Assembly (NCBI GenBank): GCA_024742755.1
Contig: JANSXW010000012.1
Location: 1 to 64,000 of the forward strand
Direction: 5' to 3'
Source of the DNA: a bacterium
GTDB lineage: Bacteria > Bacteroidota > Bacteroidia > Chitinophagales > Saprospiraceae
Length of the DNA stretch: 64,000 bases
Under the pieces are notes generated by a model. The model searched no databases, had not been told where the DNA came from, and saw only the letters and a program-made list of their open reading frames with translations. Below, piece by piece: positions 3,072-49,790 of the stretch. Each line of letters begins with the position of its first letter. Within the stretch, counting starts at the first letter, position 1. Both the position numbers and the translations under genes were made by a program.

Positions 3072-3275
3072 ATGAAGGTTGAAATTGATGATCGTCTACT
3101 GTCTATGCTAAAGGCTGCTTGTCCATCTGAAACGATAGAATCACTGGCAGAGCAGGCGCTTCAACACTATTTGCTGCATCTACAGAGACGGAATATGTTG
3201 AGTTTAGAAGGCCGGGTAGAGTGGGAAGGGGATCTGGACGAAATGCGAAGCATCAGTGAAGACGATATCGAATAG
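3072..3275 (+). CDS. Small antitoxin-like protein, no toxin partner visible
   Basis: 67 aa, acidic. It starts MKVEIDDRLL and has a helical core ending in VEWEGDLDEMR, a pattern common in VapB/Phd-type antitoxins of type II systems. No small PIN- or RelE-type toxin ORF follows: the next gene is the thioesterase 31 nt downstream. It could be an orphan antitoxin, a remnant of a toxin-antitoxin pair, or a small regulator. The assignment rests only on composition and short similarity. Confidence 0.55.
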   Translation: MKVEIDDRLLSMLKAACPSETIESLAEQALQHYLLHLQRRNMLSLEGRVEWEGDLDEMRSISEDDIE

Positions 3276-3306
3276 GTGCTTATCTTTACCAAAAAGGAAC
3301 CACTTT

Positions 3307-4167
3307 ATGAAAGACATCCAAGCCCTCCTCCAACTACTTGACCTGGAACCGATCGAAGAGCATATTTTCCGCGGGCAGAGTGCCAGCATCGGCAGCAAGC
3401 GGGTATTTGGCGGGCAGGTACTGGCGCAGGCTTTGCAGTCGGCTATCCGTACGGTGCCGGAAGACCGGTTTGTGCATTCTCTCCACGCGTACTTTATCCT
3501 GCCGGGCGATGTAGCCCAGCCAATCATTTTTGAAGTGGACCGCATCCGCGACGGGGGCAGCTTTACCACCCGCCGTATCAAAGCCATTCAAAAAGGGCGG
3601 GCTATTTTTAACATGTCGGCCTCTTTCCAAAAGCAGCAGGAAGGATTCGATCACCAAATCAGCATGCCCAATGTACAGCCGCCTGACGCGCTCATGAACT
3701 GGGACGATCTTCTGGAGCAGATGGGCGACCGGCTGCCGGAGGGGATTCGAAAATTCCTGGAAATCGCTCATCCCATCGAATTCCGACCCGTGGAGCGGGT
3801 GCACCCCATGCTCAGTGGCAAGCAGCAGCCCATCCGACATGTATGGATGAAGTCGAAGGGGGCGATGCCCGATCAGGTTACGGCACATCAGGCGGTCCTG
3901 GCTTATGCTTCTGATTATAATTTGCTGACTACCGCTTTGTTGCCCCACGGCGATCAGGTATCAAAAACCAAAATCCAAATGGCCAGCCTTGACCACGCCA
4001 TGTGGTTCCACCGCCCCTTCCGCGCGGATGAATGGCTGCTCTACGCTATCGACAGCCCGAGCGGGTCTAATGCCAGAGGCTTCACGCGGGGCAGTATTTT
4101 CAATCAGGAGGGGGTATTGGTAGCCTCAACCGTTCAGGAGGGGCTGATTCGTCCGGTGGAGGCGTGA
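3307..4167 (+). CDS. tesB: Acyl-CoA thioesterase II (TesB family)
   Basis: Double hot-dog thioesterase that hydrolyses acyl-CoA to free fatty acid and CoA in the cytoplasm. I start at MKDIQALL (286 aa) because the longer ORF from 3256 overlaps the previous gene and the family begins here; 286 aa equals the E. coli TesB length. The known triad of E. coli TesB (Asp204, Thr228, Gln278) has counterparts here: D203 in YASDYNLL, S228 in SLDHAMWFHR (Ser for Thr) and Q277 in STVQEGLIR. The first hot-dog domain has RVFGGQVLAQAL near 32-43. No operon partner is obvious. Confidence 0.93.
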   Translation: MKDIQALLQLLDLEPIEEHIFRGQSASIGSKRVFGGQVLAQALQSAIRTVPEDRFVHSLHAYFILPGDVAQPIIFEVDRIRDGGSFTTRRIKAIQKGRAIFNMSASFQKQQEGFDHQISMPNVQPPDALMNWDDLLEQMGDRLPEGIRKFLEIAHPIEFRPVERVHPMLSGKQQPIRHVWMKSKGAMPDQVTAHQAVLAYASDYNLLTTALLPHGDQVSKTKIQMASLDHAMWFHRPFRADEWLLYAIDSPSGSNARGFTRGSIFNQEGVLVASTVQEGLIRPVEA

Positions 4168-4227
4168 TTTTTTAAGTCTAAAGTTGTATATTGTATTGCA
4201 ACACATGCTATAGTAAATGAAAGCTTC

Positions 4228-24168: not shown

Positions 24169-24688
24169 ATCTAAGTTTTTGATATTCAATAAAAAACAAT
24201 GTGAATAGATCTTCGATGAATGCACAACAGACTGCACATTTAGGCTGTCAAAAGTGGCAGGGTTTTAAATATTTGCCTATTTTTGTGACAACTAAACCGG
24301 TAAGTCCTGTGCCGGTTCCGTAACCTACAATCGGATAGAATACCCCCCTGCACAAAGCAGGATATTCTCATTCAAACAAAACTTTAGCTGTGAGCTCCGG
24401 TTCACACCTAACCCCCTTTACAAATCTCAATTAAGTTTCCAGTGGGTGGTTATCGCAGTGCGATGAGCAATTATTTTTTTATGTACTCCTTTGCTCAAAT
24501 TTGCGTCTCAAAAAAAATTGGCGCAGATTTTGATGTAAAGACTTGTACAAGCACTGTGACTATGCACATGGATGTAGCCAAATGCACCTTCACGGCGCTG
24601 AGTAACTGCTTTCGCGACATCTAAGCCCGGACAAGGTGGTTGAATGCTTCAGCCAGCTTCATTATCAGAGTATTCAAATTTTAATCAC

Positions 24689-33600: not shown

Positions 33601-36600
33601 TAACCCAACCGCAGATGTCACGGGCTCCCCAATGATTGATGGCTATTACAATGACTATCTCTTTGACGGAGCGCTCTGCGACCTGGGGGCCACCTTTGAG
33701 GATGGCCCGCCAATTCAGGTGTGCGACGGTACGATCAAATTCGTGCGGGAGTGGACGATTATAGACTGGTGCCCCGATGGTGGCGACAACGTTACGACCT
33801 TCACGCAGCTGATTAAAATTGGTGACGAGGAAGGGCCAACGGTTACTGCGCCTAACGTAGACAGCGATGGCGATGGCGAGCTTGACCCATTGGTGTACTC
33901 TACAGGCACCTTTGACTGCACCGCCGCAATTGTTGTGCCGGAGCCTGACGTGGTGGACAACTGCTCCAGCTTCGAGATTGATACAGACATCCTCGTAGAG
34001 GAGATTGTGCCCAATTACAATCAGTACGGTCAGTTGATCGGTTATGACACGGTACAAACGGTATTTGCCTCTATCGGGCCGGATGACAACCGTTTCATCT
34101 CAGGCATTCCTATCGGCTGCCACACCTTCCGGTACAAAGTGACAGACGATTGTAACAACTTCACCATCATTGATGCACCATTCTGCATCGAAGACAATAT
34201 TGCACCTTCAGCGGTCTGCGATGATGACCTGAACATCTCGCTGGGCGGGAATGGCGCAGCCCGGGTATTCGCTACGGATATCGATGAGGGCAGCAGTGAC
34301 AACTGCGAGATCGCCACGCTTGAGGTGCGCCGCTTGTACGAGCTCGACCCTGATGATTGCAGTGATGTAACGGACTATTATTCCGATTGGGGCAATTATG
34401 TCGACTTCTCCTGCTGCGATGCCGGAAGCATGGTCACCATCGAGCTCCGTGTGACGGACATCTACGGTAACCAGAATATTTGCTGGCTGGAAGTGATGAT
34501 TGAGGATAAGATCAATCCATTCTGCGTGGCGCCTGCCAATACCACCATCAGCTGTGCGGACATCCCGGCCGGTTTTGAGCCGGAAAGCCCTCAGGCGCTG
34601 GAGGCACTGTTTGGCGTCGCTACGGCAATGGATGATTGCGGCGTCGCTACAGTGAGCGAGTTTACACCGGAATCTACCCTTGATGCCTGTGGCTTTGGTA
34701 CCATTACACGTACGTTCACCGCATTTGATAATGCCGGGAATCAGTCTACCAATACCTGTCAGCAGGTCATCACCGTAACAGAAGAATACAACTATACGAT
34801 TAAGTTCCCGAAAGACGAGATATCCAACTGTGGGGTACCCTCACCGGACACGATCCTGGTCAACGGGCAGGGCTGCGATATGCTCTCGGTAAGCGTCTTT
34901 GATGAATACTTCTACCCGAATGCAGGTGGCAATGATGCTTCGTGCTACAAAATCTTCCGCCGCTACCGGGTACAGAATATGTGCGAGTGGGACGGCATTT
35001 CCGGACCGTTTGTGGTTGGCCGCAATGAAGACTGCGATGCCACGCCGGGAGATGAAGATGTATGGGTGGTCCGCACCCCCGGTACAACATACATTGACCG
35101 CGACAACAATCCAAACAACAGCAACCCTGCCTTTGGCGTGAAAGGGACCTCCTGTGATGGACAGACCAACCCTGCAGGCTACTGGCGTACGGTTGCTTCC
35201 GTTGGCTACTGGCAATACACTCAGATTATTGAGGTGAAGGATGAGGAAGCGCCGGAGATCAGCTTTGCCGGCCCTCAGGAATTCTGCAGTATCAATCAGG
35301 CAACCTGTAACGCAACGGTGCAGTTCCCATTCACGATTGTAGAAAACTGTGATCCGGACAACCTTGATATTACGGTGCAGCTGGATGCAGGTGCCAATGG
35401 CACGATTGACTTCAACGTGACCAATCAGCTCACCGGCTCCTATCCAAACTATGTGATTGGCGGGGAGTATCCGATTGGTACGCACGAATTCCGTGTAACG
35501 GTCTCAGACGGCTGTGGCGGCAATACAGACTTTGCGGTACTGCCTTTTGAAGTGATCGACTGTGCACCACCAACGCTGACCTGTCTGAATGGCATCACCT
35601 TCAGCCTGCAGGAACTGCCGCCAAACACTGATATTGACGGCGACGGCGAGATCGATGCCTATGGCGCAGGGATTTGGGCGAACGACTTCCACATTGCTGA
35701 ATCGGATTGCAGCGATGATACCATCGCCTTCTCCGTGAACCTGGTAGGGGAGACGCCCAACTTCAACCAAACCTCGATCTACTTCACCTGTGATGATGTC
35801 GGTAACGTGCCTATTGAAGTCTACTTCTACGACAGTGCATTCAATCCGAATGCCGTACAACCGGATGGCAGCGTGGGCGGCCCGAACTGGGACTTCTGCG
35901 AAACCTATGTGCTGATCACGGATCCGGAAGGCTTCTGTACGACCACACAAGCCGATCCGATGATGGCAGGCCTCATTTCCAGAGAGAACGACGATGCGGT
36001 AGAAGCCGTGGAAGTTTCGCTGAGCGGACAGATGAGTACCTCTATGATGACTAACGCTACCGGTACTTACGAATTCGTTGACCTTCCAATGGGATACGAC
36101 TACACGATTACGCCACTCAGGAATGATGAGCACCGCAACGGTGTGTCGACCTTCGATTTGATCATCATTCAGCAACACTTGCTGGGCATAGCGGCGCTAA
36201 ACAGCCCGTACAAGATGATCGCAGCGGATGTCAACAAGACCAATTCTATTACGACCCTGGATATGATTCAGATTCAGAAGCTGATACTGGGTGAAATTCA
36301 GGAGTTTGCCGGCAATACGAGCTGGAGGTTTGTAGACCGGGATTTTGTATTCCCGGTACCGACGAACCCCTGGTTCTCCCTGTTCCCCGAAAGCATCTCC
36401 GTAAACAACCTGGACGATGATGTGATGTCCAATGACTTCGTAGCCATCAAAATTGGAGATGTAAACAATAGCGCGACTACGACCCTGTTCACCGGCATCG
36501 ATGAGCGGAGTTTCCGTGGAGCATTCCAACTGGAAACCGGGGAGCAGCAGCTCAGGCAGGGCACACAAATCCGGGTGCCGGTGCGCGCGCCTAAGGATGA

Positions 36601-37204
36601 GCCCGTGTACGGCTATCAGTTCTCCATGAACTTTGATGCCGATATGCTGGAACTGGCAGAGGTAGAGTACGGACTGGCTCAGGAAAACAGCCTTGGCTTG
36701 TACGATGCAGACCGCGGCCTGATTACCGTCAGCTGGTACGACGAGGAGTTGATGGCAGATGGTGGTACAACCGGCGGCCCGGTATTGTTTACCCTGGTCT
36801 TTGATGTGACAGGCAGGGCGAACACCACGCTCAGCGAAGTGCTTGAGGTCAATTCCAGTGTGACGCTGGCGGAGGCCTACAGCCGGGACGGAAGACTGCT
36901 GGACGTAAGCCTGAACTTTGCACAAGGCACAAGCTCCAAGGCTCCGTTCCAGCTCTACCAAAACCGTCCTAACCCATTCCGGCAGGGGACCATCATTGGG
37001 TTTGACCTGCCCGAAGCTGGGGAAGCCGCCCTGCATATATTCGATCTGAATGGCCGCTTGCTGAAGACCTACGAAGGGGACTACGCAGCCGGCTACAACG
37101 AGATTCGATTAGAGCGGGATGAACTGCCTGCTGCCGGAGTGTTCTACTACCGTTTGCAGGTGAATGGACAGGTAGCAACCAGAAAGATGATTATTCAGGA
37201 TTAA
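24689..37204 (+). CDS. Giant T9SS surface protein with 13 DUF11 repeats, dockerin, cohesin-like and sorting domains
   Basis: 4171 aa from MRHSYTNF (24689), chosen over 24644 because it places a normal signal peptide (KVLLLLLSSFLSFSALAQ) near the N-terminus. Order: SdrD-B-like domain (about 138-210), two similar beta-rich modules, a second SdrD-B-like domain (about 660-715), 13 DUF11-type repeats (about 816-2675), a Cys-rich HYR-like region with Ca-binding-like DSDGDGELD (about 2700-3780), a dockerin-like duplicated EF-hand pair (about 3800-3870; ADVNKTNSITTLDMIQIQ), a cohesin-like beta domain (about 3944-4077) and a T9SS type A sorting domain (about 4085-4171; NRPNPFRQG, ending KMIIQD). It should be exported by the Sec and T9SS machinery and anchored on the surface as an adhesin or matrix protein. 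The next gene is a paralogue. Confidence 0.93.
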   Translation: MRHSYTNFNVVNRLTNVTNSKVLLLLLSSFLSFSALAQNQCDLSIDEVEVDCSFQDGGSTFDVTVLFSWEGVSASELEITVAGQAQTYAINASSGSGELTGFTLSAPGAGYPVLLKAGTDCQVLDEAEAIACTPPCTGEPDEIGGLVWEDLDYNGAFGAEPGLPNVKVEAYDCNGELAGTAFSNADGVWAIPNLNTEEDYRIEFTAQNLQGVGFSMTGEDNVSDVRFAQPGDCTILAGFTPQVIEEDCENPENYGNTCIENFNILDWADYADGANPFPLPPYSKIIGGDEISCAVASADGTPYTHRVIHEMLGGEEVFYSLEMDADSHDGNDPRDVGVVFSFDRPVQRLVFQVLDIDITGNAIDRVAIQGSLSGVPVAMDMDDTFVGVHVNQLGDGIFEGTTTVNDASTSGNVTVHFTDPVDQVAINFSAMGAAVDNPGRQMIGLGKIQWCEDPVPIEPQCARIMDWHQFGDNNANPMPYTIGGSILDVVSEDPAGVATPAGFMVDSDLSPLGGTRGFWALGMDAEAAGQYVQSSFTFGIPVDDLSFSVLGIDQLEGAYQDKVSVHGFLHGAEVPLSLNDITPYSGMYNNQVALLNANEYESQGMMLSASDPSGNLWVHFAEKVDSVVVRLETGVQSPQNPAPQMVGVSDFMFCICRPAPIQLGDYVWADKNANGVQDACEVPVKAMPISLYDGSGTLLATTTSGADGHYHFTKHGTQGENWLLETQVLPQTQYYIVFGSDANNPENQFVVASGKTYAATGKLGGSSLHDSNPDPEALSDNMPGNIPDGLPYIAYSTGEAGIMNASLDAGFQEVLFDLSLKKELDTVLTPPPFTPGQLVKYNITVYNEGMLSTTFLRVVDYAPAGLNMEDGGQYHVSGNLFELPQLAPGDSLTMSVTYRIDNAFTGTTIVNAAEIAQVNNAMNYTDADSTPDFINGNDNNEDDYSTAEITVNPALIFDLSLNKRVVGNGPFEPGQDVTFEITVKNEGILLAENVVVQDYVPNGLILNDTDWEMDNGLAVLKDEIEEIEPGQSATVQVTFTIAPFFTGNSIVNSAEVLSFYNFPWTDDQDSTPDNNNPEEDDQDEVLLVVQPSFDLALHKNVISYGPYEPGDLVTFEFEVANQGSIMATSVQINEQVPNGLTLEDSDWEMVTPTRANLVAPIPLVMPGATETVEVTFRINNNFSGVSIINYGEIASYDDMNVYPDGDSTPANGSTQEDDDDTAVVPVEQPMPVFDLSLTKQINEEVNPGPFLPGQTVAFDITVTNEGNLTASGVQIIDYVPNFLTVTSNTWAPMMNSAMLAQPIPTIAPGQSVTRTITFMIDAEAPEGAIINNAEIAAASNVMGMGDTDSTPFNGIGNGEDDTDSAALEVGGEAENFDLELDKSVNASLTPGPYEPGDQVTFTITLDNTGSLEATGVQIRDTYPSSLVPNDANWTFNNGIATLNNPISSIPVDGSVSVNITFTIGDYFTGTSINNIAEIQSASNASQLPDDDSTPNNGISAEDDQDNALITVVQNYDLALTKTVVTAGPYEAGQYVTYNLNVINQGNITGTDIQLYDYYPFNHMTLADNDWEPVQGNILRLKTPIASLAPGASVSVPITFQIDAHVDCGEVLTNCAEIAGDSTPQPDVDSHPADGSHDQDDDDAVDITVSCLQNFDLALEKTVLGSSNLSPGSPVTFRIEITNEGDLTAQNIEVVDYVPQGLVVIDPDWTNNGGVAALNNNISSLAPGASVTVDIDMAIIASFTGATITNYAEIAGATNNAGAQDADSTPGNGANAPNEDDYDGAVISLQQQTFDLALSKSLNSSATPGPFEPGDAVTFNISVTNQGSITAQNIQLREYIPAGLTLIDPDWTAVGSVAELNVPVASIAPGATTTLSVDFQINNSFAGTSLTNFAEVGSAFNTLGIDDQDSTPGNGSMGSNEDDYDGATISVLQQNFDLALSKSVNTSLTPGPFMPGSPVTFTITVTNQGSMTAQTIQLRDYMPLGLVLADNNWTQNGSTAIFNNAITNLAPGQSASVDISFTVSTAFTGSIINNNAEIGAFTNDLGIGDADSTPANGAAGSGEDDYDNAIITVISSVQEFDLALTKDLNSSLTPGPFLPGSTVTFSITVTNEGDINAQNVQIRDYIPLGLVLADSDWSQIGSYAQLDVPIASLPAGASATRDITFTVSGSFNGTGITNFAEIGSATNTQGFTDVDSTPGNGSSGNNEDDFDGAYINVSQEDDPVFDLSLEKAIDVNATPGPYQPGNLVRFIITVTNEGDITAQNIVIKDYVPAGLISADMDWSQQGGTVVLNTPIASLAPGNSASVTVDFVVNQNFQGASIVNYAEIHSATNAQGIQDIDSTPNNGLVGSAEDDIDSATLTVTQQNFDLALIKTLATVGPFEPGDNVTFNINISNQGSIAAQFVEVQDFIPNGLTLIDPDWSEDNGIATLNTPIFTLSSGQSTMVSIDFVIDPEFDGTSIENFAEILSAVNPIGLGDGDSTPNNGAAGANEDDYDGASLVVDQTPEAAFDLALTKVVSSVGPFGLGDAVTYSITITNQGDFPAYNVEITDYIPTGLNLTDADWVQNGNQATYTIPGPIAALGGTETVTIDFEIADDYMGAAITNYAEISAADDDNDPTNTPPTDADSFYDNNPSNDAGGAPNTAADDAINGNGTGAPGSGIAATDEDDHDPAMITLNNCNDLSAGIGTMQQLCLSCTPDEINYDLFGALSGTPSPGGFWQDVDGAGVNLLDPTNVDFAGVPEGSYDFVYTVGGMGMCPATSATVTIELTDITSYGCNDQVNVTFGTSCEILVTPDMVLEGTPDCMGSLQVNLINENGVSIGNTITGDEVGQLLIAEVIDPYCGLLCWGNIWVTDVTAPTIVCPTQEVDLVCNDFDFVMDAESSLADLGQPIVLDNCVDYNTITFTDEMVMGLPSCEGQRINRTFTVTDPAGNSTTCVQEINFRNLSFSDIMQPDPAPVVSCDQPFAADPVTGNPTADVTGSPMIDGYYNDYLFDGALCDLGATFEDGPPIQVCDGTIKFVREWTIIDWCPDGGDNVTTFTQLIKIGDEEGPTVTAPNVDSDGDGELDPLVYSTGTFDCTAAIVVPEPDVVDNCSSFEIDTDILVEEIVPNYNQYGQLIGYDTVQTVFASIGPDDNRFISGIPIGCHTFRYKVTDDCNNFTIIDAPFCIEDNIAPSAVCDDDLNISLGGNGAARVFATDIDEGSSDNCEIATLEVRRLYELDPDDCSDVTDYYSDWGNYVDFSCCDAGSMVTIELRVTDIYGNQNICWLEVMIEDKINPFCVAPANTTISCADIPAGFEPESPQALEALFGVATAMDDCGVATVSEFTPESTLDACGFGTITRTFTAFDNAGNQSTNTCQQVITVTEEYNYTIKFPKDEISNCGVPSPDTILVNGQGCDMLSVSVFDEYFYPNAGGNDASCYKIFRRYRVQNMCEWDGISGPFVVGRNEDCDATPGDEDVWVVRTPGTTYIDRDNNPNNSNPAFGVKGTSCDGQTNPAGYWRTVASVGYWQYTQIIEVKDEEAPEISFAGPQEFCSINQATCNATVQFPFTIVENCDPDNLDITVQLDAGANGTIDFNVTNQLTGSYPNYVIGGEYPIGTHEFRVTVSDGCGGNTDFAVLPFEVIDCAPPTLTCLNGITFSLQELPPNTDIDGDGEIDAYGAGIWANDFHIAESDCSDDTIAFSVNLVGETPNFNQTSIYFTCDDVGNVPIEVYFYDSAFNPNAVQPDGSVGGPNWDFCETYVLITDPEGFCTTTQADPMMAGLISRENDDAVEAVEVSLSGQMSTSMMTNATGTYEFVDLPMGYDYTITPLRNDEHRNGVSTFDLIIIQQHLLGIAALNSPYKMIAADVNKTNSITTLDMIQIQKLILGEIQEFAGNTSWRFVDRDFVFPVPTNPWFSLFPESISVNNLDDDVMSNDFVAIKIGDVNNSATTTLFTGIDERSFRGAFQLETGEQQLRQGTQIRVPVRAPKDEPVYGYQFSMNFDADMLELAEVEYGLAQENSLGLYDADRGLITVSWYDEELMADGGTTGGPVLFTLVFDVTGRANTTLSEVLEVNSSVTLAEAYSRDGRLLDVSLNFAQGTSSKAPFQLYQNRPNPFRQGTIIGFDLPEAGEAALHIFDLNGRLLKTYEGDYAAGYNEIRLERDELPAAGVFYYRLQVNGQVATRKMIIQD
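27134..32712 (+). repeat. Thirteen tandem DUF11-type coding repeats
   Basis: Thirteen units of about 143 codons, each opening with (F/Y)DL-x-L-x-K, then a P(G/F)-x-x-PG turn, a V-x(Y/F)-x-I-x-V-x-N-x-G strand and closing with an acidic D-x-DSTP-x-NG...EDD stretch. Unit starts read FDLSLKK, FDLSLNK, FDLALHK, FDLSLTK, FDLELDK, YDLALTK, FDLALEK, FDLALSK (twice), FDLALTK, FDLSLEK, FDLALIK, FDLALTK. They would form a long stalk of Ig-like beta-sandwiches, and the acidic linkers may bind calcium. Confidence 0.92.
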
Positions 37205-37727: not shown

Positions 37728-40700
37728 ATGAAGACGTCCGGCACCACGGTTTTTAGCGTGTTTTGTTATGCATTGGGGCTCGTTATGCTCCTCTGCACAA
37801 CGGCTTGGTCAGTCCCGACTCACGGAGCGCCGGCGGAATCAGCCACCCTGGTTGAAGCATCCTGGTCAGCATCTATGCTGTCTAATTGTGAATCAGATAC
37901 GATCGCCCCGGCCATCGTTTACCCGGCTGCCGGATTGCAGGCTACCACAGAAGGCTGTGACGCCGGGCAACCTGCGGTTTTCTTCTTTTCCATTACCGTA
38001 GCGGACGATTGTGACCCTAATCCTGCCTACGAGGTAGAACTTTCATCCGGAGACGCCGGCAGCCTTTCCCTCAGCAATCCTTACGAAAACCACTTTTTGC
38101 TTACGGCTCTGCCAGGCAGCTACGAAATTACCGTTACAGCTTCTGATGCCACCGGTAATGCCCGGGCGGAAACCTTTGCTGTAGAAGTAGGGCAGGAGCC
38201 GGAGCCTGGCACAAACTACGGCTGCAATGACACCATTATCGTTACGCTCGACGAGGCTTGTCAGCGGTTAATCACGCCGGATATGATTCTGGAAGGGGAT
38301 ATTGGCTGTCTCCCGGCAGCGTACTTCGATATTCAAGTGGAGGATGAAGTGCCGGGCAACGGGCCGGTAGTAGACGGAACAGGCACTTATCCGGTAGCGC
38401 TCAACCCTCAGCAGGTAGACGCTGTTTCAGGGTTTACGCTGTCTGCTGACCACAGCTTTTGGCAATTATCCAATCGGGGGAGTGCAGCCACCGGCTTTTC
38501 GGCAGATACGCTTTTTCAGTCTGTAAGTGCTTCCGGTGGTTGGTCGGCAGCGGTCCTGCCAATTGATTTTGGAGGGCTGCTTCATTTTGACTGGGCAACG
38601 TCCATTGAATGGGCAGACTCCGCTACTTTCAGTATTCAGTTACGAAATGCCGATGGCACGATCGCAGGTGAAAGCCTTTACAGCAATTCTGATGCGGGCA
38701 GCTTTGAAAGCCCGGTCACTCAGGGGCAGGTTCTGGTTCTGAATTTGGTTTCCTCGGGTGTGGCAGCGCCTATCCCTGCCTTCAGCGCCTCTGTCACCAA
38801 TTGGAGTGTAACTTTAGATGACCTTGACCTGAGTGCTGCTTTTCCCTGTTGGGGAATGGTCGTGGCCCGGGATCAGATGCCCCCCTCTATAATTTGCCCT
38901 CCCGATACCGATGCGGCAACGATTTTGCAGCCGGCCCAGCAACTAAATGGTGCCATTACCGCTCAAAGCCCAACCATTAACGTGAATGTCCATTCGTGCC
39001 TTTCCGGGGATTTGCCGGTGAGCGGGGACCGTTTCTACGATGTGATCGCCTTTGAAGTGGACCAACCGGGCGTCTTTACGTTTTTTCTCAACACCGGTTT
39101 CTCTGATGGTGGCGGGCACATGGCCCTCTTTCAGGGAGGTTTCAGTCCGCTGAGCCCTTGCAGCAGCATCCTGGCGCAGCACGATTTCCCGGCCTCTCCA
39201 AACCCTTTCAACGGAAGCAACGACCCGTATGTAAGACTGTCGCTTCCGCTGGAAGCCAATCAGCTGTACTACCTTTTTACAACTACAGATACACCCGGTG
39301 CTACCGGAGCGTACACCTACACGATTTTGCCGGACGGCAATGGCCTGATCAGTGGCGCAACCGAGGTGGTGCTGCCCTTTACGCAAACGCTGTTTTGCGA
39401 AGACCTGTTCTTTATTCAGCAAACCGATAGCCTGCAATGGACAGGCGTACCTGAAGTCTCGGACAATTGCGGGCCGGTCAACCTGACCTTTGAGGATGGC
39501 CTGGAGCAGTCAGGCGACTGTGGGGCGTTGACTATCCTGCGGACCTTCACCGTTGTGGATGGCGCCGGGAATTCCAATTCATGTACACAGGAAATTGACT
39601 TGCGCCGCCCCGGTGTGGACGATATATCACTACCTCCTCAGACGTTCCCTATTGATTGCAATCTGAATTATCCGGTAAATGGTATGGGCAATCCCTCCCC
39701 CAGCCTTACCGGATATCCTTTTTTGCTGACGGTGCAGGGCGCCCGTGATCTGGACCAGGTGTACTGCAACCTCGGTGCAACTTACAGTGATAGCCCGCCT
39801 ATCCCGGTCTGTGAAGCCTCTTTCCAGTTTTTGAGAACCTGGGATATCATTGACTGGTGCGACCCGGCCGGCTCCTTTACTTTCGGGCAAATCATTAAGG
39901 TCGGGGACTTCACCGCACCTTTGTTGAATTGCCCGGCTCAGGACACTGATGGGGATGGCGAGGAGGACGCACTGGTATTCCCGACCCAGCCTTTTGAATG
40001 CACAGGGGCCTTTGCGGTGCCCCTGCCGGAAGTAACCGATAACTGCTCCGCCTGGGAGGTGTTCACGCAGGTCGTAACCTTCCGCGACAGCATTGTGCAT
40101 AATGCTTCCGGCTTGCCTGTAGACACATTGGAGGTTGAGGAGGTGCTGGCTACCATTCCCAATGATGCGCCCAACCGTTTCGTCTCCGGAATCCCCACCG
40201 GTTGCCATGCTTTCCGCTACGTAGTGACGGATGCCTGCGATAATCAAATCGAACAGTACTGCACCTTCTGTGTGGAAGACCGCACCGAGCCGGTTGCAGA
40301 TTGCAATGAACAGCTCAATGTTTCCCTGACTCATGACGGGTTCGTCCGCCTCCTGTCGTCAAGCGTTGACGAGGGCAGCTGGGACAACTGCGCCATTGAG
40401 CAAATGGAGGTCCGCCGGCTGATCACCAACGGGCCAGGCTGTACACCTGCGGATTCCACCTATTCTGATTGGGCACCGTATGTGGATTTCACCTGTTGCG
40501 ATATTGATTCCCTGGTGCTCATAGAACTGTTGGTGGCCGATACAGCCGGCAATGAAAACACCTGCTGGGCGGAAGTGCTGGTTGAGGACAAAATCCGGCC
40601 CAATTGCAGCCCCCCCAGCGACCGGGTCCTATCTTGCGACAGCCTGCCCAACGGGTTCGAACCAGATAGCCTCGGAGGGCTTCAGTCGCTGTTTGGCCAG

Positions 40701-43226
40701 CCTTCTGTAACAGATAACTGCTCGGCGACATGGGAAGAGCTGGAGTCCGAATCTTTGATTGACGAGTGTGGGGTAGGGACGATCGTCCGGCGCTTCAGAG
40801 CTGTAGATGCAGCAGGGAATGTGTCCAATACCGCCTGTGAACAGCTCATTACCATTGAGCCCGACCACAACTATGAAATAAAATTCCCCCGGGATGGCAT
40901 GTCTAACTGCGGCATTCCCAACCCGGATACCATTGAAGTCTTTGAGATGGCCTGCGACCTGCTGGCTGTGAGTGTGACGGATACGGTTTTTGCGGCCTCC
41001 GGAGATGAATGCTACAAGCTTTTCCGCACGTACAAGGTGATCAACTGGTGCGAGTACGATGGCGAAAGCCCGCCTGTCCTGATCCGCCGTGACGAAGACT
41101 GCGATGAAATACCAGGGGATGAAGATGTTTGGGTGCTTCGCCGTTCGGAGCATGCCTTTGTAGACCGGGACAACAACCACAGCAACAGCATACCGGCTGC
41201 CGGTACAAAGGGCACGGTGTGCAATGGGCAATCCAACCCTGAAGGTTTTTGGCGGACGGTCGTATCGAATGGATACTGGCAATACCAGCAACATGTAAAG
41301 GTCTTTGACGATGAAGCGCCGGAAATACTCTTCATTCCACCATTGGATGTCTGCAGCATCAACAACGAAACCTGCCGGGCTTCCGCAGAGTACCTCTTTA
41401 GCGTACTTGACAACTGCACGCCATCGGACCTGACTATTGAGGTTTATTACGATGAATATTCTGATGGCACCGTCGATTCTGTCTTTACCGATATTTTTGG
41501 GACTTATCCCAAGTGGAAGCTTGGCGGAGACTGGCCGATAGGATCGCATGAATTTGAAATCCGGGTAGAGGATGGGTGTGGCAATGAGGCGGCTGCTACT
41601 ATGCCATTCCGAATTGTAGACTGCCTGGCACCGGTGCCTACCTGTATTAATGGCTTATCGACCCCGCTCATGCCCGTCCCTCCGCAAACGGATGTGGATG
41701 GCGATGGAGATTTCGACCGCGGTGCTGCAACCATATTTGCTACGGACCTGATTGTCTCGCCCTATACAGACTGTAGCGGCCCGGTTACGTACAGTGTCAA
41801 CAGGGTAGGAGAGCAGCCCGCCCGCGACAAAACCTCTGTCATCCTGACCTGCGAAGACCTCGGCGTGGCCCTGCTTGAAGTATATGCCTGGGACAGTGCG
41901 GAGAACCCCTTCCAGGTACAGCCTGACGGAAGTACCGGCGGTCCCAATTATGATTATTGTGAGACTTACGTGTTGGTCACCAACAACCTGGCCGACTGCA
42001 ACGCACCGCTGCCCACCATTGCCGGTGCTATAGAGCGGGAGGATGCATCTCCGGTATCGGGTGTATCAACTGACCTTAGCGGTTTTATCAGCCAGTCTGT
42101 GCTTACCGATAGCACGGGGGGCTACGCACTCGAAGGGTTGGAACCAGCGTTTGATTATACCGTCACACCGTACCTCGATGGAGACGACCAGAATGGGCTG
42201 ACTACCTACGATGTTGTTTTAATCAGCCGGCACATTCTGGGTATTGATCATCTGGATTCTCCCTACCAGCTGATTGCGGCCGATGTGAATAACTCAGGCT
42301 CCGTCAGTACGCTCGATATGATCCTGCTGCGCCAGGTTATCCTGAGCATCCTGTTGGAAATACCGAATGGGCCCAGTTGGCGCTTCGTTCCGAAAAGCCA
42401 TCATTTTGAAGACCCAACGAACCCCTGGGCAGAACCGATACCTTACTCGGTAACCTATAACGACCTGGTCACTTCCCGCCTTGATGAAGACTACGTTGCT
42501 ATCAAAATAGGGGATATTGATTTGAGTGCTGTTGCCAGTGCTGGCCCGGTAACAGAAACAAGAAATAGCCACAGTGGCCCGGCAGCCCTGCTTCGCCTTG
42601 AAGATGTGGCCCTGCCGGCAGGGGCTTCGGTGGAAGTGCCCCTGAACAGCGACTGGTCCGGCTTAGCTGGTTTTCAGGCACTGTTAACTTTTGATCAGGA
42701 GGCGGTAGTGCTGGAAAGCGTGGCGCCGGGTACGCTGAGGGAACCATTCTTCCATCATGCATCCGGCCGTTTAGCCATGAGCTGGAATGGCGATACGCCA
42801 CCGGAAGACGGCAAACCTTTGCTCTATTTGACCCTGAGGGCCAAGCGTTCGGTACGGTTGTCAGAAGCCGTATTCCTGGATGCTCAGGGCATGCAGCCCG
42901 AGTGTTATACCCCATCCCTGGCCAAAGGCCCTGTTTTGCTGCAGTACATGGATACCGCATCAGCGGTCTACGGGCTGGACGTTTTCCCGAACCCTTTCGT
43001 ACAGCAAGCCACGGTCCGTTACTACGCCTCTGCAACAGACCCTGCCCATTTGTCTATCCTTGATCAGCAAGGGCGGCTGATATGGGAAGGATGGCAGGTG
43101 CCGTCCGCTGCCGGTTGGCAGGAGTGGTTGCTGAATGAGCAGCTGTTGCCCTCCAGTGGGCTGTATTTCCTCCGCCTGAGCAGCAGCGGGCAAGTGTGGT
43201 CCCATCGTCTTTTAAAGCTGGATTAG
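37728..43226 (+). CDS. Large T9SS surface protein, paralogue of the 4171-aa protein, with dockerin and cohesin-like domains
   Basis: 1832 aa. Signal peptide (to about residue 28), HYR-like first domain, then a region colinear with the C-terminal third of the upstream protein: YGCNDTIIVTLDEACQRL matches YGCNDQVNVTFGTSCEIL, and DTDGDGEED matches DSDGDGELD. It lacks the DUF11 array. Two extra modules interrupt the shared part: a beta-rich stretch (about 205-385) and a PPC-like domain (about 405-540). It ends with dockerin-like (about 1480-1555; NNSGSVSTLDMILLRQ), cohesin-like (about 1617-1740) and T9SS sorting (about 1745-1832; VFPNPFVQQ) domains. Role: surface protein, perhaps the partner of its paralogue through cohesin-dockerin contact (inference). 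Confidence 0.92.
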   Translation: MKTSGTTVFSVFCYALGLVMLLCTTAWSVPTHGAPAESATLVEASWSASMLSNCESDTIAPAIVYPAAGLQATTEGCDAGQPAVFFFSITVADDCDPNPAYEVELSSGDAGSLSLSNPYENHFLLTALPGSYEITVTASDATGNARAETFAVEVGQEPEPGTNYGCNDTIIVTLDEACQRLITPDMILEGDIGCLPAAYFDIQVEDEVPGNGPVVDGTGTYPVALNPQQVDAVSGFTLSADHSFWQLSNRGSAATGFSADTLFQSVSASGGWSAAVLPIDFGGLLHFDWATSIEWADSATFSIQLRNADGTIAGESLYSNSDAGSFESPVTQGQVLVLNLVSSGVAAPIPAFSASVTNWSVTLDDLDLSAAFPCWGMVVARDQMPPSIICPPDTDAATILQPAQQLNGAITAQSPTINVNVHSCLSGDLPVSGDRFYDVIAFEVDQPGVFTFFLNTGFSDGGGHMALFQGGFSPLSPCSSILAQHDFPASPNPFNGSNDPYVRLSLPLEANQLYYLFTTTDTPGATGAYTYTILPDGNGLISGATEVVLPFTQTLFCEDLFFIQQTDSLQWTGVPEVSDNCGPVNLTFEDGLEQSGDCGALTILRTFTVVDGAGNSNSCTQEIDLRRPGVDDISLPPQTFPIDCNLNYPVNGMGNPSPSLTGYPFLLTVQGARDLDQVYCNLGATYSDSPPIPVCEASFQFLRTWDIIDWCDPAGSFTFGQIIKVGDFTAPLLNCPAQDTDGDGEEDALVFPTQPFECTGAFAVPLPEVTDNCSAWEVFTQVVTFRDSIVHNASGLPVDTLEVEEVLATIPNDAPNRFVSGIPTGCHAFRYVVTDACDNQIEQYCTFCVEDRTEPVADCNEQLNVSLTHDGFVRLLSSSVDEGSWDNCAIEQMEVRRLITNGPGCTPADSTYSDWAPYVDFTCCDIDSLVLIELLVADTAGNENTCWAEVLVEDKIRPNCSPPSDRVLSCDSLPNGFEPDSLGGLQSLFGQPSVTDNCSATWEELESESLIDECGVGTIVRRFRAVDAAGNVSNTACEQLITIEPDHNYEIKFPRDGMSNCGIPNPDTIEVFEMACDLLAVSVTDTVFAASGDECYKLFRTYKVINWCEYDGESPPVLIRRDEDCDEIPGDEDVWVLRRSEHAFVDRDNNHSNSIPAAGTKGTVCNGQSNPEGFWRTVVSNGYWQYQQHVKVFDDEAPEILFIPPLDVCSINNETCRASAEYLFSVLDNCTPSDLTIEVYYDEYSDGTVDSVFTDIFGTYPKWKLGGDWPIGSHEFEIRVEDGCGNEAAATMPFRIVDCLAPVPTCINGLSTPLMPVPPQTDVDGDGDFDRGAATIFATDLIVSPYTDCSGPVTYSVNRVGEQPARDKTSVILTCEDLGVALLEVYAWDSAENPFQVQPDGSTGGPNYDYCETYVLVTNNLADCNAPLPTIAGAIEREDASPVSGVSTDLSGFISQSVLTDSTGGYALEGLEPAFDYTVTPYLDGDDQNGLTTYDVVLISRHILGIDHLDSPYQLIAADVNNSGSVSTLDMILLRQVILSILLEIPNGPSWRFVPKSHHFEDPTNPWAEPIPYSVTYNDLVTSRLDEDYVAIKIGDIDLSAVASAGPVTETRNSHSGPAALLRLEDVALPAGASVEVPLNSDWSGLAGFQALLTFDQEAVVLESVAPGTLREPFFHHASGRLAMSWNGDTPPEDGKPLLYLTLRAKRSVRLSEAVFLDAQGMQPECYTPSLAKGPVLLQYMDTASAVYGLDVFPNPFVQQATVRYYASATDPAHLSILDQQGRLIWEGWQVPSAAGWQEWLLNEQLLPSSGLYFLRLSSSGQVWSHRLLKLD

Positions 43227-43472: not shown

Positions 43473-44006
43473 ATGTCACAGATCGAGTTTACCGAGTCAT
43501 TCTGCCAGTTTCGCCCCATGCTTTCCTCTTTCGCCTTCCACCTCACCAAGAATGAGGAAGAAGCTCAGGACCTTTTACAGGATACGGCCTACAAAGCCTT
43601 TAAGTACCGCAGCATGTACAAGCCACACACCAACCTTCGGGCCTGGCTGATGACCATCATGCGGAATACCTTTATCAATAATTACCGCCAAAAGAAGCGC
43701 CGTCAAACCCTGAACGACAAAACCCCCAACAACTACTTTCTGAACAGCGGGGGGCGCACCGTACTTAATGGCGGGGAGTCCACCGTGACGATGAACGAGC
43801 TCTCCCGTCTTGTGGATGGGTTGGAGGACTGGCTAAAAGTGCCCTTCCTGATGCACTATCAGGGGTTCAAATACGAAGAAATCGCTCAGGAGCTCGACAT
43901 TCCCCTTGGTACGGTCAAAAGCCGGATCTTCTTCGCACGCAAGAAACTGCAGGAAGGGCTGAAAGGGATGTATCACTCTCAAAACCTGAACGAACTATTG
44001 AACTAA
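43473..44006 (+). CDS. ECF-type RNA polymerase sigma factor
   Basis: 177 aa. Region 2 is seen in EEEAQDLLQDTAYKAFK and RAWLMTIMRNTFIN (about 25-70), the helix-turn-helix of region 4 in YEEIAQELDIPLGTVKSRIFFARK (about 128-151). A low-complexity linker (about 80-105) joins them. No anti-sigma gene is adjacent, so control may be at expression level or by a distant anti-sigma factor. In Bacteroidota similar RpoE-like factors control envelope genes. The TetR-type gene starts 53 nt downstream. Confidence 0.93.
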   Translation: MSQIEFTESFCQFRPMLSSFAFHLTKNEEEAQDLLQDTAYKAFKYRSMYKPHTNLRAWLMTIMRNTFINNYRQKKRRQTLNDKTPNNYFLNSGGRTVLNGGESTVTMNELSRLVDGLEDWLKVPFLMHYQGFKYEEIAQELDIPLGTVKSRIFFARKKLQEGLKGMYHSQNLNELLN

Positions 44007-45155: not shown

Positions 45156-46949
45156 ATGGCAGATTATGGTTCTTCGAAACCTTTGCAGCGGTTTTTCCGT
45201 TTGCTGGAACTCGACAAGAAAGACATTTACTATATATATGTCTACGCGATCTTTGCCGGGCTGATTACGCTTAGCCTGCCGCTTGGGGTACAGGCCATCA
45301 TTGGACTGATCGCCGGGGGCGCGCTGTCCGCATCTCTGGTGATTCTCGTGGCAGTGGTCACCCTGGCAACCGCACTCTCCGGTATTCTCAAAGTGATGCA
45401 GCTGACGGTCACGGAGACCATTCAGCGGAGAATCTTTGCCCGTTCGGCTTTTGATTTTGCCTATCGTATACCGCGCATCAAGCTGGATGAGGTGGTGCGG
45501 TTTTATCCGCCGGAACTGGTCAACCGCTTTTTTGATACGCTCTCCGTACAAAAAGGGGTGCCCAAAATCCTGATGGACTTTTCCACCGCCGTCCTCCAAA
45601 TCCTTTTCGGGCTGATCCTGATTTCTTTTTACCATCCTTTCTTTGTTTTCTTTGGGCTTGCGCTGATCGTCATTCTGCTGGCCATCATGCGGGTGACCGG
45701 CCCCGGGGGGCTCAAGACCAGCCTCAAAGAATCCAAATACAAATACGAAGTAGCTTACTGGCTGGAAGAAATCGCCCGCGCCATGAATACCTTTAAGCTG
45801 GCAGGCGGCAATTCCTTCTCACTGAACAAAACCGATGGCCTGGTTTGCGATTACCTGGACGCCCGGAAAAAGCACTTTAAAATTCTGGTCTTCCAATACG
45901 GGAACATCGTTGCCTTTAAAACCATCATCACTGCCGGGCTCTTGTTTTTAGGAGCCTATCTGGTGATTGACAATCAGATCAACATTGGTCAGTTCGTTGC
46001 AGCGGAGATTGTGGTGATCCTGGTCATGAACTCTGTGGAGAAGCTCATTCTGAGTATGGAGACGATCTATGATGTACTCACGGGGCTGGAAAAACTGGGC
46101 GCTGTTACGGACCTGCCCATCGAAGAGGAAGAAGGCCGGCTTTTCGAGCAAATTGACACCGGTAAGGGCATAGCGCTCAACCTGGAGAAGCTGACTTTTA
46201 AATTCCGGGATTCCGACAAGAATACACTGGATAACCTGAACTTAAAGATCAAAGCCAACGAACGCATCTGCATTGCAGGCTACAACGGTTCGGGCAAGTC
46301 CACCCTGCTTCAGATTATGGCGGGCTTGTATACTGATTTTAAAGGCAGTATTTCCTACAATGGTTTTCCGGTGCGGAACATCAACATACATAGCCTGCGG
46401 CAACAAATAGGCGACTATTCGGCTCAGGAAGACATTTTCCGGGGTACCATTTTGGAAAACATCACCTTTAGTTGCCCGGATGTGCCTTTGAAGCGGGTAG
46501 TGGAGGTCGCGAATCAGATCGGATTGAGTACGTACATTGACAAACTCCCCAAAGGTTATGAGACCATGCTTTTGCCTGAGGGCAGTAACGTCACGCAAAG
46601 CATACGTACCCGCATCATTCTGGCGCGCTGTATCATCACAAGCCCGCGCATGCTGGCTGTGGAAGGCTTCTTCTACGGCATTGAGCAGGGCGACCGCGAG
46701 ATGATTTCGGACTACCTCACATCGAAAGACCACGACTGGACCATGGTCACCGTAACGGATGACCCGGTTCTGGCTTCCCGGTGCGACCGGGTAATCGTCA
46801 TGAAAGAAGGGCAGATCGTACAGTCTGGTACATTTGAAGAGATTGAGGCGGGCCCTCACTTCTACAATATTTTTACACGAACAGACGCAGCACGGGTTCA
46901 CGGCAATGGAGTTGGGAAGTCGCGCAAATCTGCTGAATCAAACGCTTAA
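45156..46949 (+). CDS. ABC exporter (permease-ATPase) with degenerate catalytic motifs
   Basis: 597 aa half-transporter: membrane domain of about six spans (about 20-310) then an ATPase domain (about 335-570). No N-terminal C39 peptidase domain. Walker A is intact (GYNGSGKST, about 375-383) and the Q-loop region is normal (SAQEDIFRGT). Three other motifs are abnormal: LSGGQ is replaced by VTQSI in GSNVTQSIRTR, Walker B reads RMLAVEGFF (Glu-Gly where Asp-Glu is expected), and the switch His is Asp in TVTDDPV. It is the first gene of an ABC/HlyD/TolC operon (gaps 5 and 1 nt), a type I secretion-like layout. It might bind but hydrolyse ATP poorly, or belong to an atypical Bacteroidota clade. Confidence 0.88.
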   Translation: MADYGSSKPLQRFFRLLELDKKDIYYIYVYAIFAGLITLSLPLGVQAIIGLIAGGALSASLVILVAVVTLATALSGILKVMQLTVTETIQRRIFARSAFDFAYRIPRIKLDEVVRFYPPELVNRFFDTLSVQKGVPKILMDFSTAVLQILFGLILISFYHPFFVFFGLALIVILLAIMRVTGPGGLKTSLKESKYKYEVAYWLEEIARAMNTFKLAGGNSFSLNKTDGLVCDYLDARKKHFKILVFQYGNIVAFKTIITAGLLFLGAYLVIDNQINIGQFVAAEIVVILVMNSVEKLILSMETIYDVLTGLEKLGAVTDLPIEEEEGRLFEQIDTGKGIALNLEKLTFKFRDSDKNTLDNLNLKIKANERICIAGYNGSGKSTLLQIMAGLYTDFKGSISYNGFPVRNINIHSLRQQIGDYSAQEDIFRGTILENITFSCPDVPLKRVVEVANQIGLSTYIDKLPKGYETMLLPEGSNVTQSIRTRIILARCIITSPRMLAVEGFFYGIEQGDREMISDYLTSKDHDWTMVTVTDDPVLASRCDRVIVMKEGQIVQSGTFEEIEAGPHFYNIFTRTDAARVHGNGVGKSRKSAESNA

Positions 46950-46954
46950 CCGAC

Positions 46955-48340
46955 ATGTTGAATATATCTGACAATACCGTTAATCAGGAAGTAGAGTTCA
47001 GCCGGTTCAATTCCTTTAAGCGGACTGTACTATCCAATGCCAACCGGATGTTTACCCGCTGGCTGTTGTTCACGCTTTTCCTGGTGATTGTGTTCTTATT
47101 CCTGCCCTGGACGCAAAACGTGCAGTCCAAGGGCAAGGTCACTACGCTTCAGCCCGGGCAACGGCCGCAGACCATACAGTCGACCATCGCAGGGCGTATT
47201 GAGAAATGGTATGTCCGGGAGGGAGACCTGGTCAGGCAGGGTGACACGATTGTGTTTCTTTCAGAAATTAAGGCTGAATACTTCGACCCCGATCTTGTGC
47301 CACGCACCAACCAACAGGTGAAGGCAAAAGAAGGGGCAATCAATTCCTACGGAGATAAGGTGGTGGCGCTGGAACAGCAGATCGAAGCCATGAAGTCAGA
47401 GCTGGAATTCAAACAGCGGCAGCTTAGGAATAAAATCCTCCAAACAGAGGCCAAGCTTAATTCTGCAGAAGCCGATTACGCACAGGCTATTGTGCAGGAT
47501 TCGATTGCCAACCGGCAGTATTCCCGTTCGCAGGAGCTGTTTGACAAAGGTATCGACAGCCGGACTAAGCTGGAAGACAAGCAGTCGAAAGTGCAGGAGA
47601 CCGCTGCCAAGCTTATTTCCGCTCAGAACAAAGTGCAGGAGGCTCAAAATGAGCTGGAGAATGCCAGGTTGGCACTCAATACGGTGCAGTACGAGTACAA
47701 TCAGAAAATCGCAAAGGCAGAGTCTGATAAATTCAGTACGCTGTCTGCTCTTTTTGACGCAGAAGGCAGTGTCAACAAACTGCGCATTGAAGCTTCCAAC
47801 TATTCCGCTCGTAACCAGTTTTACTATATTTTAGCTCCACAGGATTGCTACATCACTAAAGCCATCACTCCTGGTATCGGTGAAACGGTGAAGGAAGGAG
47901 GAGATATTGTAACCATCATGCCGGCCGATTACGAGCTGGCTGTGGAGCTCTTCGTAAAGCCTATGGACTTGCCGCTGATCGAACTTGGGCAGGAAGTCCG
48001 CTTCATCTTTGACGGCTGGCCAGCGTTCATCTTTTCCGGCTGGCCCGGGCAGTCCTTCGGCACCTACTCCGGCAGTGTGGTGGCTATCGATAATATGATC
48101 AGCAAAAACGGCGAGTACCGCATTCTCGTCGGCGCTGCCCCTGGCGGCAAGCCCTGGCCGGAAGCCCTCCGGGTAGGCTCAGGCGCTCAGGGTATTGCGC
48201 TGCTCAACAACGTGCCGCTCTGGTACGAAATATGGCGGCGCCTGAATGGATTCCCGCCAGATTACTACGATGCGGAAGATGGGGATATGGGAGACGGCGA
48301 GGACGTCAAAATGAAAGCTCCGGCTAAATCAATAAAATAA
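46955..48340 (+). CDS. HlyD-family membrane-fusion protein
   Basis: 461 aa. One N-terminal span (about 33-52), a biotinyl-lipoyl-like half-motif (GRIEKWYVREGDLVRQGDTI, about 71-90), a long coiled-coil hairpin (about 105-275) and a second lipoyl/beta-barrel part with ITPGIGETVKEGGDIVTIMP. It links the inner-membrane ABC protein to the TolC channel. Starts 5 nt after the ABC gene and is followed 1 nt later by TolC. The tail is acidic then basic and unassigned. Confidence 0.92.
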   Translation: MLNISDNTVNQEVEFSRFNSFKRTVLSNANRMFTRWLLFTLFLVIVFLFLPWTQNVQSKGKVTTLQPGQRPQTIQSTIAGRIEKWYVREGDLVRQGDTIVFLSEIKAEYFDPDLVPRTNQQVKAKEGAINSYGDKVVALEQQIEAMKSELEFKQRQLRNKILQTEAKLNSAEADYAQAIVQDSIANRQYSRSQELFDKGIDSRTKLEDKQSKVQETAAKLISAQNKVQEAQNELENARLALNTVQYEYNQKIAKAESDKFSTLSALFDAEGSVNKLRIEASNYSARNQFYYILAPQDCYITKAITPGIGETVKEGGDIVTIMPADYELAVELFVKPMDLPLIELGQEVRFIFDGWPAFIFSGWPGQSFGTYSGSVVAIDNMISKNGEYRILVGAAPGGKPWPEALRVGSGAQGIALLNNVPLWYEIWRRLNGFPPDYYDAEDGDMGDGEDVKMKAPAKSIK

Positions 48341-48341
48341 A

Positions 48342-49790
48342 ATGAGATTGAGATTCATCCCGACGCTTTTCATACTGGTACTATTGAGTCCGGTGGCGGT
48401 AGCGCAACCGGCCGATACGGCACAAGTGCTGACCGCTGATCAGTATCTGTCCTGGGTGGCGAGTTACCATCCGGTGGCCCGGCAGGGGCGGTTGCTGAAT
48501 GTACAGGCGGAAGCTCTGGAACGGCTGGCCCGGGGCGGGTTCGACCCCAAACTTTACGGCGACTGGGACCAGAAAAACTTCAAGGAAAGCGAATACTTCG
48601 CATTTGGGGAGGCTGGCGTGAAAATCCCTACCTGGTACGGCATTGAGCTGAAAGGGGCCTATGCCGTCGCAGATGTGGATGCCCTCTACCAAAACGCCGA
48701 GCGCACCGTGCCGGATGTGGGGCAGGCGATATTAGGCATTAAGGTACCCCTCGGCCGTAACCTCATCATTGATGAGCGCCGGGCTGCCCTGGAGCAAGCT
48801 AAAATCATGGCGGATGCCAACCGGGCAGAGCAGCAGGGGATGGTCAACGATTTATTGCTGGAAGCCGCGAAGGCTTACTGGGAGTGGAGCGTGGCTTTCA
48901 ATCAACTGATTGTTTTCGACCGGGCACTGGTGATTACAGTCGAAAGATTCGAAGGGATAAGAGAGAGCTTCTTCGCAGGCGACCTGCCGGCAATCGATAC
49001 CTTGGAAACGATGATTCAGTTACAGGTCCGGGAGTTTGATTACAACAATGCCTTGATTGAATACCGGAACGCGACCCTCAAACTTTCCAACTTCCTCTGG
49101 ACAGAAGCCGGAGAGCCGCTGGAAGTAACCGACGAGCTGCGTCCGCTTTTGCTGGAAGAACTGGAGCCGGACCCTGTTCCCAACACCCGGCAGCAGTTGT
49201 GGGAGGATGCGCAGCGGATACATCCTGACCTGTTGAAATACCGTTTCAAACTACAGCAGTATGATGTGGACCGCCGCCTGGCGCTTGAGCAACTGAAGCC
49301 CCGGCTCGACCTGGAGTACAACTTCCTCGGTGAGGGCACCAACTTCCTGCCCGGCAGCACAACAGACAATGGCATCTCCCAGCTGGTCGCGCAAAACTAC
49401 AAATGGGGCGTACGGTTTGATTTCCCGGTTTTCCTGCGCAAAGAGCGGGGTAAATTACAACTCACGCGCATCAAAATACAGGATGCGGAGTACACCCTGC
49501 AGCGCAAACAGCTGGAGGTGGAGAACAAGATCAACAACTACTACAATGAACAGGACAACTTCATTGCTCAGATTGCGCTTTACGAAGGTGCTGTTCAAAA
49601 CTACAACACCCTCCTCGAGGCCGAATACATCAAGTTTGACCTGGGAGAAAGCTCCATTTTCCTCGTGAATTCCCGTGAGCAGAAGCTTATCGAAGCGCAG
49701 TTGAAGCTTATTGAGCTGCGCGGTAAGTTCTTCAAGACCCGTCAGAAGCTCGAATGGGCAGCAGGCCGTTTAGGGCTACTGGCCAATTAA
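48342..49790 (+). CDS. TolC-family outer-membrane channel protein
   Basis: 482 aa, normal family length. Signal peptide (to VAVAQPADT), then two OEP repeats of paired long helices; recognisable pieces are QAILGIKVPLGRN, LLLEAAKAYWEWSVAFNQ and VENKINNYYNEQDN. It forms the outer-membrane exit duct of the tripartite exporter. The full length contrasts with the half-length homologue in the EPS operon. A hairpin follows the stop codon. Confidence 0.92.
   Translation: MRLRFIPTLFILVLLSPVAVAQPADTAQVLTADQYLSWVASYHPVARQGRLLNVQAEALERLARGGFDPKLYGDWDQKNFKESEYFAFGEAGVKIPTWYGIELKGAYAVADVDALYQNAERTVPDVGQAILGIKVPLGRNLIIDERRAALEQAKIMADANRAEQQGMVNDLLLEAAKAYWEWSVAFNQLIVFDRALVITVERFEGIRESFFAGDLPAIDTLETMIQLQVREFDYNNALIEYRNATLKLSNFLWTEAGEPLEVTDELRPLLLEELEPDPVPNTRQQLWEDAQRIHPDLLKYRFKLQQYDVDRRLALEQLKPRLDLEYNFLGEGTNFLPGSTTDNGISQLVAQNYKWGVRFDFPVFLRKERGKLQLTRIKIQDAEYTLQRKQLEVENKINNYYNEQDNFIAQIALYEGAVQNYNTLLEAEYIKFDLGESSIFLVNSREQKLIEAQLKLIELRGKFFKTRQKLEWAAGRLGLLAN

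Follow-up and report, generated by a model that had tools for sequence, protein, structure and literature searches.

A dockerin-cohesin cassette predicted to dock on itself at the C-terminus of T9SS adhesin-like proteins of Saprospiraceae

Background

Dockerin and cohesin are known as a plug and its socket in machines that degrade cellulose. Adaptor scaffoldins are known to hold both a cohesin and a dockerin in one chain (PMC11557425). In the amylosome of Ruminococcus bromii, Amy4/Sca1 is likewise a single polypeptide carrying a dockerin and a cohesin, and self-aggregation through its own pair has been proposed (PMC5814915). Cohesins and dockerins with a role outside cellulosomes have been called of unknown function (PMC5244752), and a study of one Bacteroidetes cellulase genome states that it has no cohesins or dockerins, as in other Bacteroidetes (PMC5831590).

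Here we describe a C-terminal cassette that joins a dockerin, a cohesin and a type IX secretion system (T9SS) sorting domain in a marine member of the Saprospiraceae (Phaeodactylibacter). The genome that contains the window (the whole stretch of 64,000 nucleotides that was analysed) is 6.95 Mb in size and 92.5% complete. Among named relatives, Phaeodactylibacter xiamenensis KD52 comes closest, with 91% identity over the best segment, and the orthologue of ORF B in that strain is 91% identical.

Results and discussion

The same cassette ends two adhesin-like proteins

ORF B consists of a signal-like N-terminal sequence followed by a HYR-like region and the C-terminal cassette, whose parts are arranged in the order X-module, dockerin-like module, LNK segment, cohesin and T9SS type A sorting domain. 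ORF A, an upstream paralogue on the same strand, has the identical order. Features of both are given below, where residue 1 of the B cassette corresponds to nucleotide 41994.

37728-43226, + strand: ORF B, exported adhesin-like protein of 1832 aa (ORF call, profile searches)
42015-42179, + strand: X-module of B, a CarboxypepD_reg-like beta domain, residues 8-62 (weak PF13620 match; family HMM, 63 bits; AF2 strands at 8-60)
42180-42362, + strand: dockerin-like module of B, residues 63-123 (PF00404, ScaB profile match, three AF2 helices at 71-82, 90-96 and 106-116)
42177-42212, + strand: dockerin loop 1 of B, non-canonical
42282-42317, + strand: dockerin loop 2 of B, canonical
42363-42527, + strand: LNK segment of B, 55 aa, SWRFV...AIKIGD, residues 124-178 (family HMM, 76 bits)
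42534-42578, + strand: flexible tether of 15 residues from X-dockerin-LNK to cohesin, residues ~181-195 (pLDDT ~68 in a model otherwise >90)
42585-42950, + strand: cohesin of B, residues 198-319 (family HMM, 80-82 bits; best Foldseek matches mostly cohesins)
42978-43223, + strand: T9SS type A C-terminal sorting domain of B, residues 329-410 (TIGR04183, 31.1 bits, cut-off 23)
24644-37204, + strand: ORF A, paralogue of B, 4186 aa
35963-37201, + strand: cassette of A (profile searches, family HMMs)
35963-36124, + strand: X-module of A (family HMM)
36137-36307, + strand: dockerin of A (family HMM)
36311-36475, + strand: LNK of A (family HMM)
36542-36916, + strand: cohesin of A (PF00963, 40 bits, above the curated cut-off in the genome scan)
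36959-37201, + strand: T9SS C-terminal domain of A

Residues 555-1832 of B align with residues 2883-4186 of A at 42% identity over 1310 aa (1000 bits), which excludes chance resemblance; the family HMMs and Foldseek matches also speak against it. Pfam and NCBIfam models back the dockerin and the T9SS tail in B but the cohesin in A only, whereas HMMs made from the family detect every module in B. The dockerin of B scores 27.0 bits against PF00404 (Dockerin_1) in the stretch-wise genome scan, passing the cut-off of 22.9, and 19.7 bits, under that cut-off, in the whole-protein scan. By sequence profile it also matches the ScaB dockerin 4uyq_B (E 5.8e-9). Loop 2 has D97, N99, S101 and D108 in place, while loop 1 keeps D62, D64, G68 and D73 and has no ligand at position 5.

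The cohesin of B has no match to PF00963 in either the whole-protein or the genome scans. Its jelly-roll fold, of which FQALLTFDQEAVVLESV (42672-42722) makes up strands 3-4, is supported by structure: the AF2 models that contain this domain have a pLDDT of 92-94, the 323-aa one resembles the solved cohesins 2xdh (TMt 0.65), 6kgc (0.64) and 4dh2 (0.60), and its first 26 PDB matches in Foldseek are cohesin-bearing chains. The T9SS domain lies at the extreme C-terminus (residues 1752-1830 of 1832).

The first-pass annotation had read a dockerin, a cohesin-like part and a sorting domain, in that order, at the end of the 1832-aa protein, and had taken this for the same terminal cassette in a second adhesin. 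Both readings were borne out, the first by PF00404, by the family HMM and AF2 model, and by TIGR04183, and the second by the homology with A. The span that it gave was 42170-43226; the cassette starts near 42015, since the X-module precedes the dockerin. The conserved 55-residue LNK between dockerin and cohesin is an addition to its list of modules.

Residues W129, K171 and D174 of LNK are invariant across 71 cassettes. The last two fall within the LNK end, GD-[VI]-[ND] (residues 171-178; 42504-42527), which is half-calcium-loop-like and might complete the deficient dockerin loop 1.

Directly downstream of B, on the same strand, is an ECF sigma factor gene (43473-44003). At 45156-49787 and 50353-58683, genes for an ABC exporter, a HlyD-like protein and an outer membrane efflux protein adjoin an opposite-strand protein of 2776 aa with FG-GAP/Chlamydia-PMP repeats.

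Distribution of the cassette

A search of 30 genomes detected the dockerin profile in 16/18 from Saprospiraceae and in 0/12 from other families of the order, and the cassette is so far limited to this one family. Counting only proteins with an intact 3' end, 91 distinct proteins have dockerin, cohesin and T9SS tail in order. Eleven cassettes are in the source genome, 17 in P. xiamenensis, 10 in another genome (G007) and the remainder in other relatives; the copy numbers in the first two rule out a cassette private to A and B. P. xiamenensis has two further cassettes in which a cohesin was not detected.

Six paralogues of P. xiamenensis (L119, L120, L121, L122, L123 and L112, on contigs C83, C8, C34, C84, C98 and C20, respectively) share 93-98% DNA identity over nearly all of their comparable length. 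We considered whether the cassette had been shuffled between these adhesins as a DNA unit and rejected this, as the similarity continues well beyond the cassette on its upstream side in every copy whose contig is long enough; the six copies thus look like whole-gene duplicates. Contigs C8, C84 and C98 end within the gene, and assemblies are therefore probably broken by recent amplification as well.

A predicted docked pair within one chain

An AF2 model of X-module, dockerin, LNK and cohesin (323 aa, 71 homologues) has a pLDDT of 93.6 and a pTM of 0.87, with low confidence confined to the tether (pLDDT 68) and the ends, and LNK packs with X-dockerin at high confidence. By the pTM formula, a value of 0.87 needs an error of ~3 Å between X-dockerin-LNK and cohesin, where independent units would give ~0.6; docking is thus read from the summary pTM rather than from atomic positions or PAE. 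The full B cassette (58 homologues) gives a pLDDT of 91.6 and a pTM of 0.74, a decrease that fits a free tail that is not rigidly placed. On this basis the X-dockerin unit is predicted, with moderate confidence, to dock in cis on its own cohesin. AF2 can be over-confident, however, and dockerin loop 1 is non-canonical.

Conservation across the 71 cassettes is highest in the dockerin (0.68), followed by LNK (0.60), the X-module (0.49) and the cohesin (0.42). Within the cohesin, the top residues Q228, S263, Y305, G226, E303 and W264, which include its Q/S/E/Y signature, are on strands 3, 5 and 8. In solved complexes these strands belong to the dockerin-binding sheet (PMC5429695). Q228, S263 and Y305 are kept in A, B and nearly all other cassettes. 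Tyrosine is present at position 305 in 84/85 cohesins whose chain also has a dockerin (two locus-edge fragments were assigned to this group) and in 0/53 of those whose chain has none and that have a residue at this position; in the latter group S263 is also mostly absent. The cassette cohesins form one clade (76/77, support 0.95). On the dockerin, T71 (recognition position 10, in loop 1) is found in 97% of cassettes versus 67% of dockerin-only proteins. Evolutionary distances of dockerin and cohesin have a partial correlation of 0.31, compared with -0.13 for dockerin and T9SS domain and -0.04 for LNK and cohesin. The dockerin-cohesin correlation, the clade and the conserved sheet fit a retained cis interface, although shared descent accounts for part of the conservation and clade structure.

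These data also bear on the idea that the modules descend from a dockerin and a cohesin but now act as folded spacers before the T9SS tail and bind nothing specifically. In its favour, the cohesin co-evolves with the T9SS domain (partial correlation 0.62), and the one is gained or lost with the other: among dockerin proteins, 91 have both a cohesin and a T9SS tail, seven the tail only, none a cohesin only and 19 neither, so that a cohesin is detected in 91/98 proteins with the tail versus 0/19 without (p = 2e-16, uncorrected for phylogeny). The seven are mostly no clear exceptions, because their gap from dockerin or LNK to the tail (~80-175 aa, mostly 138-175) could house a diverged cohesin. 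Degeneracy of dockerin loop 1 points the same way. Against it stand the polar residues of the binding sheet, which hardly vary, a dockerin that is the best-conserved module, and a confident docked model, and we consider this explanation quite improbable.

Most likely, adhesins exported by the T9SS have a self-docked clasp as their C-terminal stalk, close to the surface; assembly in trans is the chief alternative and may coexist with it. X-dockerin-LNK would fold back through the 15-residue flexible tether onto the cohesin of its own chain to form this calcium-loop-bearing 'clasp'. The type A sorting domain, judging from its family, would direct the protein to the type IX secretion system for export and would be expected to be removed, which would leave the docked X-dockerin-cohesin pair as a stalk near the surface holding the long HYR/DUF11 adhesin arm. 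In this picture the homology, the order of domains, their spread and their conservation are observed and docking in cis is predicted by the model, whereas a need for calcium, attachment to the surface and a role as stalk are what we infer.

Dockerins and cohesins in separate proteins

Nineteen proteins end in X-dockerin-LNK or X-dockerin, with neither cohesin nor T9SS tail. They have signal-like N-termini, and domains such as Redoxin, Sortilin/BNR and DUF5122 propellers occur in front of the X-module. The dockerin-bearing hydrolases of plant polysaccharides that mark a cellulosome were not seen: P. xiamenensis has six dockerin-only proteins, and none has a glycoside hydrolase match in Pfam, although one just reaches the cut-off for the NCBIfam model 'glycosylhydrolase'. 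Some adjoin possible partners: one neighbours a 4-cohesin protein (L045, L134) and two a cassette protein (L046). At the last locus (1597-4180, source genome contig C160), a cassette protein of 3721 aa is immediately followed by proteins of 423 and 446 aa that end in X-dockerin-LNK; the front of these two resembles the pre-cassette stretch of such adhesins, and they have no cohesin and no T9SS tail.

A scaffoldin trait of the cellulosome, multi-cohesin proteins, is also present in the source genome and its relatives. These contain 3 to 10 cohesins, in several cases along with SprB-like repeats, and have T9SS tails of type A or of type B (identified by TIGR04131), and the largest of P. xiamenensis is followed by a PorP/SprF gene (E 7e-47). 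A cluster consisting of a 260-275 aa cohesin-T9 protein, a protein with 4-10 cohesins and cassette proteins recurs in several related genomes (L112, 4031-14065 on P. xiamenensis contig C20; L114, L116, L117, L118; and L044, source genome contig C397). Its multi-cohesin protein is a predicted scaffoldin-like T9SS substrate, going by its sequence; the type B tail is confirmed in L112 and L044, and a ~320-aa neighbour is PorP/SprF in L112.

Such proteins suggest assembly in trans, in which dockerins of A, B and the dockerin-only proteins plug into cohesins of other chains, either multi-cohesin SprB-like proteins or neighbouring cassette proteins, and so build a network resembling a cellulosome, displayed by the T9SS, that would serve adhesion or present enzymes. 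The Redoxin, Sortilin/BNR and propeller front parts, the dockerin-only proteins encoded next to a 4-cohesin or a cassette protein, the type B multi-cohesin proteins that cluster with cassette proteins beside PorP/SprF, and the co-occurrence of dockerin and cohesin across the 30 genomes (16/16 versus 3/14, p = 7e-6, uncorrected for phylogeny) are consistent with it, and the fact that a genome can encode both proteins with only a dockerin and proteins with only cohesins likewise suggests that binding is not in cis alone. However, cassette cohesins differ from those of multi-cohesin proteins at the binding sheet and form a clade of their own, and dockerin-only proteins lack the T9SS tail that would account for their passage through the outer membrane. 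As the main function of the cassette, trans assembly is in our view possible but doubtful. A combined scheme is unlikely: a non-cellulosomal cohesin-dockerin network of Saprospiraceae displayed via T9SS, in which giant adhesins would have the self-docked clasp and dockerin-only clients (redoxin, propeller and protease-like) would get to the surface by docking on exported cohesins, possibly opening the clasp.

Divergence between the A and B cassettes

The first-pass annotation had further proposed that divergence between the two cassettes could give binding specificity, to be judged by rates of change at interface residues in related genomes, and had named loss from most relatives as a point against it. 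Both cassettes are present in 6/6 genomes, and we compared orthologues from these six genomes, which hold A and B side by side. The dockerin is the best-conserved module in both (identity 0.79 for A-A, 0.76 for B-B). Divergence is located in the cohesin (A-A 0.48, B-B 0.37, A-B 0.26), and the T9SS tail of B is also divergent (B-B 0.32).

Columns with no residue common to A and B are not enriched at the classical dockerin recognition positions (3/16 versus 9/43 elsewhere, p = 1.0) or on cohesin strands 3/5/6/8 of the binding sheet (5/27 versus 14/99, p = 0.55), and the hot spots Q228, S263 and Y305 are common to both. Changes among orthologues thus show no concentration at recognition sites, and the specificity proposal is unsupported. 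Since a few differences do sit on recognition positions, at dockerin 78 (Q versus S/G), 113 (Q versus R) and 118 and at cohesin 229, 261 and 265 (Y versus N/A/H), some difference in specificity could exist, but that divergence gave A and B distinct specificities is very improbable.

Comparison with known systems

Dockerin, cohesin and T9SS modules are, singly, of known kinds. In our literature search we did not find their combination into this cassette, its abundance in one Bacteroidota family or the predicted cis docking. With so many cohesins and dockerins tied to T9SS tails in one family, a non-cellulosomal function becomes testable with defined pairs. Two partners that dock in cis on a covalent tether are also interesting in themselves, both for the mechanics of such a stalk and as a building block in protein engineering.

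The cassette proteins share an export tag and giant repeats with adhesins bearing T9SS type A C-terminal domains and with the SprB/SprF gliding adhesins, and the latter also have a PorP/SprF neighbour, as does the multi-cohesin protein. No dockerin or cohesin modules in either group are described in the literature searched.

Cohesin and dockerin folds are found outside cellulosomes, as here, in Archaeoglobus fulgidus (2xdh), Clostridium perfringens NagJ and ANME archaea. To our knowledge these lack a T9SS tail.

In CipA of Clostridium thermocellum (3kcp/4fl4) and ScaB of Acetivibrio cellulolyticus an X-module directly precedes the (type II) dockerin, as an X-module does in the cassette. However, cellulosomal scaffoldins have the order Coh-X-Doc, sortase or SLH anchors, and CBMs, in contrast to the order X-Doc-LNK-Coh-T9SS, T9SS anchor and adhesin repeats of the cassette proteins, whose partner, unlike that of cellulosomal scaffoldins, is predicted in the same chain. 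The closest precedent for a protein interacting through its own pair comes from a Firmicute, R. bromii, whose Amy4 is a secreted amylase, whereas the cassette is an adjoining C-terminal pair found in dozens of T9SS substrates.
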